Source of the DNA: Candidatus Bathyarchaeota archaeon | GTDB taxonomy: Archaea; Thermoproteota; Bathyarchaeia; EX4484-135 | Reading direction: 5' to 3' | Assembly (NCBI GenBank): GCA_011040545.1 | Contig: DQYM01000073.1 | Coordinates: forward strand, 1 to 15,555 | DNA length: 15,555 bases | Shown here: one piece after another, positions 2,434-7,619 of the stretch | Layout: the number at the start of each line of letters is the position of its first letter | Position numbering within the stretch: the stretch's first letter is position 1 | Notes under the pieces: model-generated | Seen by the model: the letters and a program-made list of their open reading frames with translations, nothing else | What the model was told of the DNA's origin: nothing | Databases searched by the model: none | Translations under genes and position numbers: made by a program

Positions 2434-2511
2434 GGGCCGGTAGCTCAGCTTGGTTAGAGCGCTCGGCTGATAACCGAGAGGTCGTGGGTTCAAATCCCAC
2501 CCGGCCCACCA
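2434..2511 (+). tRNA. tRNA-Ile (anticodon GAT), CCA encoded
   Basis: The full cloverleaf can be read. The acceptor stem is GGGCCGG/CCGGCCC (2434-2440/2501-2507). The D arm is GCTC...GAGC. The anticodon stem CTCGG/CCGAG encloses the loop CTGATAA, with anticodon GAT at 2469-2471. The T arm is GTGGG-TTCAAAT-CCCAC. Discriminator A2508 is followed by an encoded CCA. GAT reads the isoleucine codons ATC and ATT. No intron is present. It is a lone tRNA, and its 3' end lies 5 bp from the stop codon of the convergent DUF35 gene. Confidence 0.97.
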
Positions 2512-5285: not shown

Positions 5286-5534
5286 TTAAGCGCCTTTCTC
5301 CCTCTCCAGCAAGTGCTCTACTATGGATACGCCTATGGCCCTACCGCCTGATACCTCAAACTCAAGCATTACCCTATCCAATAGGGTCTCCCTTGGGTTA
5401 AAGCTCGTGCCACAGGAACCGCATTCTATTTCACAGCCAAGCTCAACTGCATACCAAGATGCCTCTGCGTAGAGGCGACCACAGGACGGACAGCGGAAGA
5501 GGGCCACATCTAGCCATGCCCTCTCACGCTCCAT
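5286..5534 (-). CDS. Small zinc-ribbon protein, unknown function
   Basis: An 82-residue protein. Two CxxC pairs, Cys15/Cys18 (CPSC) and Cys38/Cys41 (CGSC), sit 20 residues apart and should bind one zinc in a ribbon fold; a further Cys34 lies between them. The second half (about 50-80) is acidic and predicted beta then helix, without a recognised motif. No membrane segment is present. The ATG start at 5534 follows a purine-rich GGGGTAGG and a TATA box at 5571-5580. The gene is divergent from the SSO10a-like gene, and the palindromic operator 5583-5599 lies between the two promoters, so both may share control. It could act in nucleic-acid binding or in a complex, but nothing specific can be claimed. 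Confidence 0.75.
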   Translation of the reverse strand: MERERAWLDVALFRCPSCGRLYAEASWYAVELGCEIECGSCGTSFNPRETLLDRVMLEFEVSGGRAIGVSIVEHLLEREKGA

Positions 5535-5570: not shown

Positions 5571-5580
5571 CTATATGTAG
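5571..5580 (-). promoter_or_regulatory. TATA box of the small zinc-ribbon gene
   Basis: The minus strand reads CTACATATAG. The predicted transcription start is near 5550, leaving a short leader to the ATG at 5534. The palindrome at 5583-5599 starts two bases upstream of it. Confidence 0.5.
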
Positions 5581-5582
5581 GT

Positions 5583-5599
5583 GCTCACAGATCGTGAGC
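5583..5599. promoter_or_regulatory. Palindromic operator, copy A (GCTCAC-N5-GTGAGC)
   Basis: A perfect 6-5-6 inverted repeat, GCTCAC AGATC GTGAGC, inside the longer shared block TAGGTGCTCAC...GTGAGCT. It lies between the divergent TATA boxes of the zinc-ribbon gene (5571-5580) and the SSO10a-like gene (5605-5609). A second copy with the same spacing to the downstream T-tract lies at 5920-5936. A 17-bp palindrome abutting the BRE is a typical site for a dimeric regulator. It is unlikely to be a terminator because no plus-strand gene ends upstream of it. Confidence 0.6.
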
Positions 5600-5602
5600 T
5601 AG

Positions 5603-5610
5603 CCTTTTTG
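5603..5610 (+). promoter_or_regulatory. TATA-like element of the SSO10a-like gene
   Basis: CCTTTTTG lies six bases downstream of operator copy A. Its centre (about 5607) predicts a transcription start near 5633, essentially at the GTG start at 5636, so the mRNA is probably leaderless. The spacing matches the promoter of the bactofilin-like gene. Confidence 0.5.
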
Positions 5611-5635
5611 CCCTTGTGGGCGTGCTTAGCTCCTT

Positions 5636-5917
5636 GTGGTGAGGAGGGCTAAGAGGAGCAGGTACGATATATACGCAGATGTCCTAGATGCCATCAGGAG
5701 GAACGCTCCCTGTACGCTCACCAGGGCCTCTTACGGTGCTAGGATGCCCCTAGATAGGGCCAGGGAGGTCGTGAGGAAGCTCCTTGGGGCTGGGCTAATT
5801 GATGTAGTGCTCATAGGGGGCCGTAGGCACTACGTGCTAACGCCAAGGGGAGCTGAGTTCTTAGAGCTCTACAGGCGCCTAAAGGCCCTCCTAGCACCCA
5901 TAGAGCGATCACATTAG
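5636..5917 (+). CDS. SSO10a-like winged-helix DNA-binding protein
   Basis: A 93-residue basic protein. The N-terminal RRAKRSRYDIYADVLDAIRR, the helix-turn-helix region (about 28-50) and the wing with GGRRHYVLTPRGAEFLELYRRL match archaeal small winged-helix proteins of the SSO10a group (HTH_45 type). These dimerise through a long C-terminal helix, here residues about 72-90, and bind DNA as chromatin proteins or regulators. The usual YxLTxxGxxFL signature is present as YVLTPRGAEFL. Start codon GTG at 5636, with another GTG directly after; no ribosome-binding site, consistent with a leaderless mRNA. Palindromes lie immediately upstream of this gene and immediately downstream, before the bactofilin-like gene. 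It is the obvious candidate to bind both, which is an inference. Confidence 0.85.
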   Translation: MVRRAKRSRYDIYADVLDAIRRNAPCTLTRASYGARMPLDRAREVVRKLLGAGLIDVVLIGGRRHYVLTPRGAEFLELYRRLKALLAPIERSH

Positions 5918-5919
5918 GT

Positions 5920-5936
5920 GCTCACTTGATGTGAGC
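5920..5936. promoter_or_regulatory. Palindromic operator, copy B (GCTCAC-N5-GTGAGC)
   Basis: A perfect 6-5-6 inverted repeat, GCTCAC TTGAT GTGAGC. It begins three bases after the SSO10a-like stop codon and lies just upstream of the TATA-like element of the bactofilin-like gene. Together with copy A it shares TAGGTGCTCAC, GTGAGCT and a T-tract starting on the sixth base after the palindrome. The N5 spacers differ, as expected for an operator whose half-sites are what is conserved. A hairpin-type terminator for the preceding gene is the main alternative. Confidence 0.6.
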
Positions 5937-5939
5937 TTC

Positions 5940-5947
5940 CCTTTTAG
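5940..5947 (+). promoter_or_regulatory. TATA-like element of the bactofilin-like gene
   Basis: CCTTTTAG is centred near 5944 and predicts transcription from about 5970, coinciding with GTG codons at 5971 and 5974. The palindrome-to-start distance (about 35-38 bp) is the same as for the SSO10a-like gene, which also starts with GTG GTG. Confidence 0.5.
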
Positions 5948-5970
5948 CCCTTCCCGCCAGGGTGTGCTTG

Positions 5971-7230
5971 GTGGTGCTATTGGAGGGCAGGAGGAAGGTA
6001 GTAGTCCCAGATGGCGCTACCGTAGAGCTTGGGCTCGTGGACGGCGACCTCCTAGTTGGCTGGGATGCCGTAATCAGGGGCGAGGGCACGCCACCGAGGG
6101 TGGTCGTGAAGGGCGTAGCGAAGTTCAAGGGCGATTGTACTGTTCAAGCGAACCTAGAGGCTAGGAGGGTGGAGTGTAGGAATGGCGATCTAGAAGTAGC
6201 TGGCGACCTAAGGGCCAAGACCAGGATACGCATTAAGCATGGCTCACTAAGTGTTTCTGGCTCCCTTGAAGCAGATGTAGTTGATGTTGATAGGAAGCTG
6301 ATCGTCAAGGGGAAGGCAGAGGTAAGGGAGGCAAGCGTTGGCGGTAATCTTGAGTCCTTTAGCGAGTTCAGGGCAGATAGCATAAGCGTTGGTGGAACCC
6401 TAATTGCCCATGGTCCCCTCAGGGCCAGGAAGGTAAGCGTTGGTGGTGTAGCTAGGCTAGCAGGCGAGGTTGAAATTGAGGAGCTAGATGTAGGTGGCCA
6501 TGCCAGCCTAGCTGGTGGCCAGGTCGGGAAGGTGGACGTGGGTGGCAGCCTTGAGGCAAGTGGTGGGCTCGTGTTCAACGATATAGATGTTGGTGGCTCC
6601 GTGGTCCTAGCTGGTGGTAAGGGGGGCGATATAGATGTTGGTGGCATTCTGGTGTCCAAGGGACCCCTAGAGTCCTTTGGATCCATAAATGTCGGTGGGC
6701 GGGTTGAGCTACAGGGGCCATCTAGGGGCCAGGCCATAAGCGTTGGTGGTAGCCTGAGGGTAGATGGAGACCTTGAGCTAGCCTCTAGCCTCAAGGTCGG
6801 TGGGACAGCTAGGATAGCTGGTCGCCTCCTAGCTAGCTCCATCAGCGTTGGCGGGGAGCTGAGGGCCGAGGAGGTTAGGGCCATAGATAGCATCAAGGTA
6901 GGTGGCCTCCTCTCAGCACCAGGTGGCATTAGGGCGAGGTACGTTGAGGTAGGCCATAGGGGCCGTATTGAGGGGCCAGTTAGGGCTAGGGAGGTTAGGG
7001 TGCGATCTAGGGCTAGGGTAGAGGACATATGGGCAGATGATATAACGCTTGAGGAGCGCTCTAGGGCCAGGAACCTATACGGCAGGTGGATATACATTGA
7101 GCGTGGCTGCGTTGTATCAGGTGAGGTCAAGTACGTAGATGAGCTCGTGGTTGAGGAGCACGTGAAGCTAGCTAGGGAGCCAGAGAAGGTGGAGAGGCCA
7201 GAGGACATAGGGCTTGGTGAAGCTACGTAG
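5971..7230 (+). CDS. Bactofilin-like polymer-forming beta-helix protein with VGG repeats
   Basis: A predicted protein of about 419 residues built almost entirely of short beta-strand repeats, as in polymer-forming cytoskeletal (bactofilin-like) proteins. The N-terminal part (1 to about 120) has irregular strands. The middle has twelve VGG turns spaced 16-18 residues apart plus a VGH thirteenth, with alternating I-x-V strands, as expected for a beta-solenoid stacking one rung per repeat. The last 90 residues keep the strand periodicity but lose VGG and become richer in Arg and Glu. No signal peptide or membrane helix is seen, so it should act in the cytoplasm or at the inner membrane face. Canonical bactofilins are much shorter (about 100-200 residues). 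The start is GTG at 5971 by promoter distance; GTG at 5962 is the alternative. The SSO10a-like gene lies directly upstream. Confidence 0.75.
   Translation: MVLLEGRRKVVVPDGATVELGLVDGDLLVGWDAVIRGEGTPPRVVVKGVAKFKGDCTVQANLEARRVECRNGDLEVAGDLRAKTRIRIKHGSLSVSGSLEADVVDVDRKLIVKGKAEVREASVGGNLESFSEFRADSISVGGTLIAHGPLRARKVSVGGVARLAGEVEIEELDVGGHASLAGGQVGKVDVGGSLEASGGLVFNDIDVGGSVVLAGGKGGDIDVGGILVSKGPLESFGSINVGGRVELQGPSRGQAISVGGSLRVDGDLELASSLKVGGTARIAGRLLASSISVGGELRAEEVRAIDSIKVGGLLSAPGGIRARYVEVGHRGRIEGPVRAREVRVRSRARVEDIWADDITLEERSRARNLYGRWIYIERGCVVSGEVKYVDELVVEEHVKLAREPEKVERPEDIGLGEAT
6337..6957 (+). repeat. Coding tandem repeat: 12 VGG units plus VGH, about 17 codons each
   Basis: GTx-GGx-GGx codons recur at 6337, 6388, 6439, 6490, 6538, 6589, 6637, 6691, 6742, 6796, 6847 and 6898, with a VGH variant at 6949. 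Steps are 48-54 bp, mostly 51. The DNA between the turns is diverged, so these are old protein-level repeats rather than recent duplications. Confidence 0.85.
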
Positions 7231-7247
7231 GAGCACTTATACGACAG

Positions 7248-7619
7248 ATGCCCCCGTCCTACTGGTGCTTGAGATTGGTGCTCCTTAGGGTCGCTAGGGT
7301 TGAGTCCTTTGAGACGGTTGAGGGGGAGCTAGGTAGGCGCATAGAGCTCGTGGAGGAGAAGCCCGCCACGGCTTCCATAACGCCAGCTGGCCCCCAGCCA
7401 GAGGAGGTCAGGTTGGCCCACGAGCTAGCGCAGACCATGTTCCAGGCCATGCAGATGCACATACCCATATTCAGGGCCAGTCGCAGGGTGAGGAGCCCTA
7501 AGATAATCCTCTTCCTAACTGAAGCTGAGTGCGAGGAGCTAGGCTTGGAGTTCAACGTAAACCAGCTCTACGATGTTGAGTTCTTAAATGGCACGATAAG
7601 GTTCAAGAGGGTTGAGTAA
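7248..7619 (+). CDS. Small conserved-looking protein, unknown (possible arcadin-1-like)
   Basis: A predicted protein of up to 123 residues. The middle (about 50-75) is a predicted helix rich in Met and Gln (LAQTMFQAMQMH). The C-terminus, SPKIILFLTEAECEELG...NQLYDVEFLNGTIRFKRVE, has a strand-helix-strand-strand pattern. This C-terminal pattern reminds me of arcadin-1, a crenarchaeal protein linked to the actin-like crenactin, but I cannot confirm it. The gene follows the bactofilin-like gene after 17 bp and may be co-transcribed. A TATA-like ACTTATAC at 7235-7242 would instead place the start near 7265, so the true start may be TTG 7269, TTG 7275 or GTG 7278; the leading MPPSYWC is not convincing. 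Its last 17 bp overlap the convergent Nudix gene. Confidence 0.65.
   Translation: MPPSYWCLRLVLLRVARVESFETVEGELGRRIELVEEKPATASITPAGPQPEEVRLAHELAQTMFQAMQMHIPIFRASRRVRSPKIILFLTEAECEELGLEFNVNQLYDVEFLNGTIRFKRVE

Follow-up and report, generated by a model that had tools for sequence, protein, structure and literature searches.

Proteins with the Sso10a fold are mainly known for coating and bending DNA. Sso10a and Sso10a-2 of Sulfolobus are described as chromatin proteins, reported to bind with no apparent sequence specificity (PMC4941522), and AspA of the Sulfolobus plasmid pNOB8 is, by the title of its PDB entry, a plasmid centromere-binding protein and not a promoter regulator. TFB-RF1 (PF1088) of Pyrococcus furiosus, in contrast, is a promoter regulator that recruits TFB. 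As far as the accessible portion of that report goes, its motif TCTGAANTTCAGA, a 13-nt palindrome with an AANTT centre, lies upstream of a poor BRE and TATA box with conserved spacing, the regulator gene sits inside an operon under its control, with the partner gene PF1089 labelled 'hypothetical', and a second target is an exporter with ABC_tran+PF13732 and ABC2_membrane_3 domains (PMC5937170). For the Thermococcales glycolytic motif (TGM), TATCAC-N5-GTGATA, which belongs to the TrmB-family regulators TrmBL1/Tgr and to sugar-metabolism targets, the excerpted text relates the position relative to BRE and TATA box to the sign of control, and sites upstream of both go with activation (PMC4158304). 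EarA of Methanococcus maripaludis, according to a partial text of its description, is an activator with four 6-bp sites directly upstream of the BRE of the archaellum (fla) operon, where a change of the BRE bypasses the need for EarA (PMC5512572).

Here, we compare with these systems a locus in which a winged-helix gene of the Sso10a fold and a bactofilin-like gene are each preceded by a copy of the same palindrome. A literature search covering few subscription journals returned no paper combining Bathyarchaeia and bactofilin, and none combining Bathyarchaeia with a transcriptional regulator and an operator; among the matches listed, titles and opening parts of abstracts mentioned neither an Sso10a operator nor a bactofilin-linked archaeal regulator.

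Results

Two matching palindromes in the window

The DNA analysed (the window) is a stretch of 15,555 nucleotides from a Bathyarchaeia assembly of 1,060,883 bases in 257 contigs (85.85% complete), a placement to which the names of related proteins also point. On its plus strand it encodes a 93-aa winged-helix (wHTH) protein (5636..5917), which is the proposed regulator, a bactofilin-like protein (5962..7230, start possibly at the GTG at 5971; PF04519 at 48.2 bits, above the gathering cut-off of 27.9 bits) and, 17 nt after the bactofilin gene, an Arcadin-1 homologue (7248..7619; PF18653, 62.2 bits), and the latter two genes possibly form one operon. Arcadin-1 relatives occurred in 20 of 60 other genomes, yet near none of the 82 other bactofilin loci, and the bactofilin-arcadin pair looks specific to the lineage of the window. 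A small divergent gene on the minus strand (5286..5534) gave sub-threshold zinc-ribbon matches only; it is a candidate target of the nearer palindrome, and since no relative of it was found near the 82 other bactofilin loci, it is tied to the system by position only. At the contig end (1-354, minus strand) the window also carries the 5' portion of a 16S rRNA gene of archaeal type, and a tRNA-Ile(GAT) lies at 2434-2511 (plus strand). A genome of the same genus (G001, 75% complete) gave no match to bactofilin, wHTH or the operator model R1 described below at the thresholds used class-wide.

The original prediction saw in two copies of GCTCAC-N5-GTGAGC the operators through which the wHTH protein would regulate itself, the zinc-ribbon gene and the bactofilin gene. 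Both copies were found as described: copy A (GCTCACAGATCGTGAGC) at 5583..5599, with the core dyad TCACAGATCGTGA at 5585-5597, and copy B (GCTCACTTGATGTGAGC) at 5920..5936, with the core dyad TCACTTGATGTGA at 5922-5934. TAGGT stands directly before each copy and a T directly after it; a T-run (5605-5609 and 5942-5945) starts at the sixth base past each palindrome. These runs had been read as TATA elements, which agrees with their alignment to the TATA boxes of relatives: the run at 5605..5609 (plus strand) stands where the promoter of the wHTH gene should have its TATA box, with the spacing of the CTTTTAA/TTTAAA boxes of relatives, and the TATA box TTTTA of the bactofilin promoter (5942..5946, plus strand) likewise shows a spacing conserved in relatives. 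GTG-GTG starts follow at 5636 and 5971, with gaps of 36 and 34 bp.

In the entire host assembly the exact pattern occurred at two sites, both in the window, and the pattern written backwards, which served as control, at none. When two mismatches were allowed, 57 of 200 shuffles of the window also reached two matches, so that such a count is not rare; as this mismatch-tolerant count is weak, the weight of the palindromes was placed on their exactness, their uniqueness in the genome and their conservation. Origin of the palindrome by chance was rejected on account of genome uniqueness and conservation in relatives.

Both copies reach beyond the palindrome when aligned by model R1. Copy B is a double site, in which the unit at 5922-5934 is joined 13 bp upstream by a distal unit (TCACATTAGGTGC, 5909..5921). 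Copy A consists of one full unit and the right half, AGGTGC (5579..5584), of a degenerate upstream 13-bp unit, the GTG at 5581-5583 standing 13 bp before that at 5594-5596. The shared TAGGT is the right half of such an upstream 13-bp unit. By comparison with relatives, TCAC-N5-GTGA is the conserved unit, and the outer G/C pair a feature of the window's lineage.

Conservation of the operator in Bathyarchaeia

A search for bactofilin across 256 genomes of the class gave a match at E<=1e-20 in 81, the host included. Including the window, 83 loci were read, 6 of them with too little readable upstream DNA (contig ends and one N run). Within the 260 nt preceding the bactofilin start chosen for each locus, a perfect TMAC-N5-GTGA was present in 65 of the 77 readable promoters, window included, and absent from 12, as against 19 of 644 upstream regions of other open reading frames of at least 150 aa from the same loci; Markov-1 resampling yielded a mean of 0.45 in 77 and a maximum of 4. 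At least one locus with a perfect dyad was found for 35 of 41 genera. Bases that had played no part in the selection were conserved as well, namely T at -3 (45/51), A at -2 (44/51) and T at +14 (48/51).

An additional GTG stood exactly 13 bp after the GTG of the dyad in 44 of the 65 promoters and 26 bp after it in 10, all other offsets occurring three times at most. The operator is therefore described as an array in which the 13-bp unit NNAC-N5-GTGN occurs one to three times, with the dyad consensus TCACAANTTGTGA and at least one array unit close to it. The distance from the last GTGN to the TATA-like box was 5-7 nt in 65 of 66 assembled sites and 3 nt in one, although a TATA-like box was required for assembling these sites and their position upstream of TATA is partly given by construction. 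The full architecture was found in 61 of the 77 bactofilin upstream regions and in 1 of the 644 others. In 13 of 13 loci inspected of family f19, a conserved ORF of 29-30 codons lies between operator and bactofilin start, possibly a microprotein or the leader peptide of the operon.

A rigid pattern, TMAC-N5-GTGA-N6-TTTWW, matched 30 times over 61 genomes, compared with 16 times for its control; it did not recover the sites in the window, where the spacing differs by one. It was replaced by R1, a sequence-only model of 44 positions built from the bactofilin promoters of 50 relatives without the window, the E-values of which are rough. In the host genome, which is incomplete, R1 found at E<=10 copy B as the best match (23.0 bits, E 7.2e-5) and copy A (13.8-13.9 bits, E 0.059), with no further site; a model of the dyad only (R2, 25 positions) gave no match there at the same threshold. 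As R1 was trained on genomes of the same class, any association of its sites with the wHTH across the class is partly built in, and the independent tests of the model are the host genome and the Heimdallarchaeota genomes considered below. Taken together, the palindromes are a conserved operator: the predicted core recurs upstream of bactofilin orthologues, including those of six Heimdallarchaeota loci, and is not spread over the host genome. What had to be corrected is its form, which is a tandem 13-bp dyad rather than a single GCTCAC-N5-GTGAGC.

The winged-helix protein and its linkage to bactofilin

The 93-aa protein scored 39.6 bits against Pfam HTH_45 (PF14947; gathering cut-off 25.5), and HTH_45, HTH_20 and DUF4364 were its only Pfam matches at E<=1. 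In its AF2 monomer model (pLDDT 95) a winged helix is followed by a long C-terminal helix, the arrangement of the Sso10a fold, and the best fold matches include Sso10a-2, AspA and Sso10a; MarR/PadR proteins, MexR and MepR among them, are also similar. Against NCBIfam NF053610, the Sso10a chromatin family, the protein reached 37.5 bits, below the curated cut-off of 60. Its earlier designation as SSO10a-like is thus justified for fold and Pfam family and not for the chromatin subfamily, and because of the missed cut-off the label of a chromatin protein was not carried over. The recognition helix reads LPVDRAK, the P, D and R of which (alignment positions 34, 36 and 37) were invariant in 45 sequences. 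Among the best 120 of 999 homologous proteins, names were mostly those of Bathyarchaeia; for one close homologue (P0219) the source names a bacterium, 'Candidatus Acidoferrum sp.', and either a transfer or a mis-binned contig would account for this. In 16 of 73 loci (L142, L143, L087 and L084 among them; families f18, f22 and f8) the open frame of the wHTH exceeds 200 codons, and the two that were scanned (L142 and L143) showed a fusion of the wHTH with a KaiC-like ATPase domain (PF06745).

A wHTH gene was encoded on the strand of bactofilin within the fetched stretch at 73 of 83 loci, downstream of bactofilin in 43 and upstream in 30. Of the downstream genes, 36 had open frames within 34 nt of bactofilin or overlapping it, and 7 followed at 114-799 nt. 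Counted at 90 bits or more, a threshold that falls into a gap of the match list from 91 to 76 bits, both genes were present in 76 of the 256 genomes, bactofilin alone in 5, wHTH alone in 2 and neither in 173. The fetched stretch lacked a wHTH at 10 of the 83 loci, and four of the genomes concerned (G099, G193, G194 and G223) had none of at least 90 bits anywhere. Among 64 genomes with a strong R1 site, 53 had a wHTH at this threshold and 11 did not. Completeness is below 85% in seven of these 11. For 8 of the 11 the wHTH is present in another genome of the genus; the remaining 3 belong to genus g53, in which only weaker matches turned up (72.5 bits and partial; 68 bits; none).

By this linkage and co-occurrence, the wHTH is the foremost candidate for the binder of the operator. 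As for the predicted self-regulation, the wHTH gene of the window does have its own copy (A) in front, a feature specific to the lineage: in 29 of the 30 loci with the wHTH gene upstream no perfect site lay within 200 nt of that gene. In the 43 loci with the wHTH downstream, mostly in operon-like order, the gene would share the operator of bactofilin.

Three loci of family f8 (L085, L146 and L152) carry a small ORF between wHTH and bactofilin. In four genomes (G008, G160, G113 and G165) an R1 site occurs just after the wHTH gene, and the small ORF may therefore be a further target. At one locus (L097, genome G013) the wHTH is interrupted by stop codons and the bactofilin promoter is devoid of a perfect dyad, a possible case of joint decay of regulator and operator.

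The locus in Heimdallarchaeota

In all six Heimdallarchaeota loci, which had come from a genome scan with the wHTH, bactofilin was located directly upstream of the wHTH gene. The bactofilin operator reads ATCACAANTTGTGAT in four and GTCACAANTTGTGTT in two, followed after about 6 nt by a TATA box; compared with TCACAANTTGTGA, four sites are perfect and two have one change. The recognition helix is LPIDRAK or LPLDRAK. The Bathyarchaeia-trained model R1 found the bactofilin/S9 site in all six genomes, if weakly (E 0.011 to 0.19). In one locus (L003) an S9 peptidase is encoded divergently, and a gene for a GNAT acetyltransferase comes after that of the wHTH. Five loci have S9 proteins that share 48-51% identity with an S9 protein likewise encoded behind an R1 site in the Bathyarchaeia genome G193. 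A stronger R1 site (E 4.5e-4) in one Heimdallarchaeota genome precedes an MFS gene, the product of which is 39% identical to a Bathyarchaeial MFS protein also having the site. Most other R1 matches in these genomes precede genes without assigned identity.

Genes downstream of further sites in relatives

Strong R1 sites (E<=1e-3) were found in 64 of the 256 genomes; the expectation from the E-values is about 0.26. For a view of the regulon, 62 sites among the matches listed (E up to 2.1e-3; in 60 stretches, outside the training set) were inspected; these include a bactofilin start located at the end of a contig (L218) and two sites of further bactofilin-like genes (L241 and L242). An ORF of at least 100 aa started within 180 nt of 49 of the 62 sites, compared with 503 of 3720 positions drawn at random from these loci. 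After removal of near-duplicates and of very short ORFs, the Pfam scan covered the first downstream ORF of 47 of the 62 sites. Within the best 25 of 39 families, these 47 proteins comprised 12 MFS_1 and 6 S9 peptidases, 3 luciferase-like monooxygenases and 3 ABC_tran, 2 each of Cass2/GyrI-like, DUF4097, FMN reductase and bactofilin, and 1 each of M29 peptidase, TldD/PmbA, beta-lactamase (PF00144) and APH. The ABC operon recurs within genus g26 of family f19 and in one genome each from two other families; the gene next to the site is ABC_tran+PF13732 in L205, and ABC_tran is followed by ABC2_membrane_3 in the operon of L226.

Six genomes (G101, G110, G111, G181, G219 and G220) had 6-9 R1 matches each at E<=1, which suggests that they may possess a larger regulon; sites there precede the M29 peptidase (G101), TldD/PmbA (G181) and Cass2/GyrI-like proteins (G110 and G220). 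In G100 another HTH_45 protein (74 bits; L256, 2003-2317) is encoded after an MFS gene for which R1 gives a site (E 0.0012).

Discussion

The core idea of the original prediction, a regulator of the Sso10a fold connected to bactofilin by a palindromic operator, is well supported by conservation, linkage and co-occurrence. We propose that dimers of the winged-helix protein sit on the tandem 13-bp dyads NNAC-N5-GTGN (full site TCACAANTTGTGA), the last half-site ending 5-7 bp before the TATA box, and that the bound protein most likely recruits TFB/TBP at a promoter with a poor BRE and so activates transcription. The main target would be the bactofilin promoter in most genomes having the gene, efflux pumps, ABC exporters and peptidases would be further targets in relatives, and in the window's lineage the extra copy A would place the regulator gene under the same control. 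To this joint reading, in which the wHTH both binds the palindromes and activates, we assign a probability of roughly 0.6. The 93-aa protein is very probably the binder; given that it is, activation appears a good deal likelier than repression. It is favoured because of the poor BRE and the site at a fixed upstream distance, as for TFB-RF1. The six nt before the TATA box contained 0.62 A on average in the 66 operator promoters and 2.09 in 94 others (p 4e-13), the latter from the same loci with crude TATA calls and with related sequences not thinned, and the BRE of the operator promoters is thus poorer than that of other promoters.

The same geometry could be read with the opposite sign, the wHTH covering the BRE and blocking TFB until a signal arrives, in the manner of MarR/PadR-type regulators of efflux pumps. 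The proximal half-site does abut the BRE position, the similarity of the model to such regulators is in line with this role, and sites of relatives precede MFS pumps and ABC exporters. Repression is nonetheless rather unlikely: a poor BRE should leave the basal promoter weak without help, the spacing to TATA is tight and the arrays extend away from the promoter, the 93-aa protein has no Pfam domain beyond the HTH, and the TrmBL1/Tgr sites that lie upstream of BRE and TATA accompany activation (PMC4158304). This last source also brings in a different binder, for instance a TrmB-family protein like TrmBL1/Tgr, with the wHTH merely co-regulated, since the TGM has the same core, TCAC-N5-GTGA (PMC4158304), and the host genome has one TrmB-family match. 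However, such matches occur in 56 of 61 relatives irrespective of sites, whereas bactofilin, wHTH and sites co-occur and the link between the two genes holds in Heimdallarchaeota; moreover, the identified downstream genes are not sugar genes and the flanks differ (TAG..CTA or GC..GC), and we consider binding by such a protein improbable.

The fixed spacing to TATA would also be expected of an extended BRE read by basal factors without any dedicated regulator, which we regard as very improbable, as the full architecture is nearly confined to bactofilin promoters among the genes of these loci, the host genome has only two exact sites, and dyad symmetry with up to three 13-bp units is not explained in this way. 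Copy B, located 3 nt past the stop codon of the wHTH gene and followed by a T-run, could finally pass for the hairpin of a transcription terminator; at copy A, though, no real-looking plus-strand gene of the ORF list ends, the conserved sites precede genes, and half-sites outside the hairpin are kept in the 13-bp register. This reading, hardly credible, was rejected on the position before genes and the register beyond the hairpin.

Activation by the winged-helix protein from the tandem dyads, if true, would give a protein of the Sso10a fold a defined operator and would predict the genes co-expressed with archaeal bactofilins (pumps, exporters and proteases), providing a handle on their function in uncultured archaea. 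It would also mean that two archaeal phyla have both retained, or have exchanged, an operator together with its gene pair. The palindromes are part of a conserved archaeal regulon, which is probably old, and a role in export or stress is proposed for it. Whether an ancient regulon common to Bathyarchaeia and Heimdallarchaeia, with a bactofilin-linked activator of the Sso10a fold on tandem 13-bp dyads, ties bactofilin, efflux pumps, ABC exporters and peptidases into one envelope- or xenobiotic-stress response is a more tentative proposal, to which we give slightly less than even odds.

Among the described systems, the LPVDRAK recognition helix sets the protein apart from the Sso10a sequences compared. 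The operator has the TCAC-N5-GTGA core of the TGM; the flanks are TAG/CTA in relatives and GC/GC in the window instead of TA..TA, and the linked regulator contains no TrmB domain. With EarA it shares several repeated sites directly upstream of the BRE, the units being 13 bp long here. The locus also resembles TFB-RF1: in both, a 13-nt palindrome with an AANTT centre lies at a conserved distance upstream of TATA and a BRE poorer than that of other promoters, the regulator gene lies in an operon that it controls or, here, would control, and the exporters of L205 and L226 correspond in their domains to its second target. The locus does not belong to the TFB-RF1 regulon proper, as the half-sites are TCAC/GTGA and not TCTG-N5-CAGA, the dyads form tandem 13-bp arrays, and the partner gene encodes a bactofilin. 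New with respect to TFB-RF1 are the unusual candidate binder, the tandem register, the cytoskeletal target and the occurrence in a second phylum.
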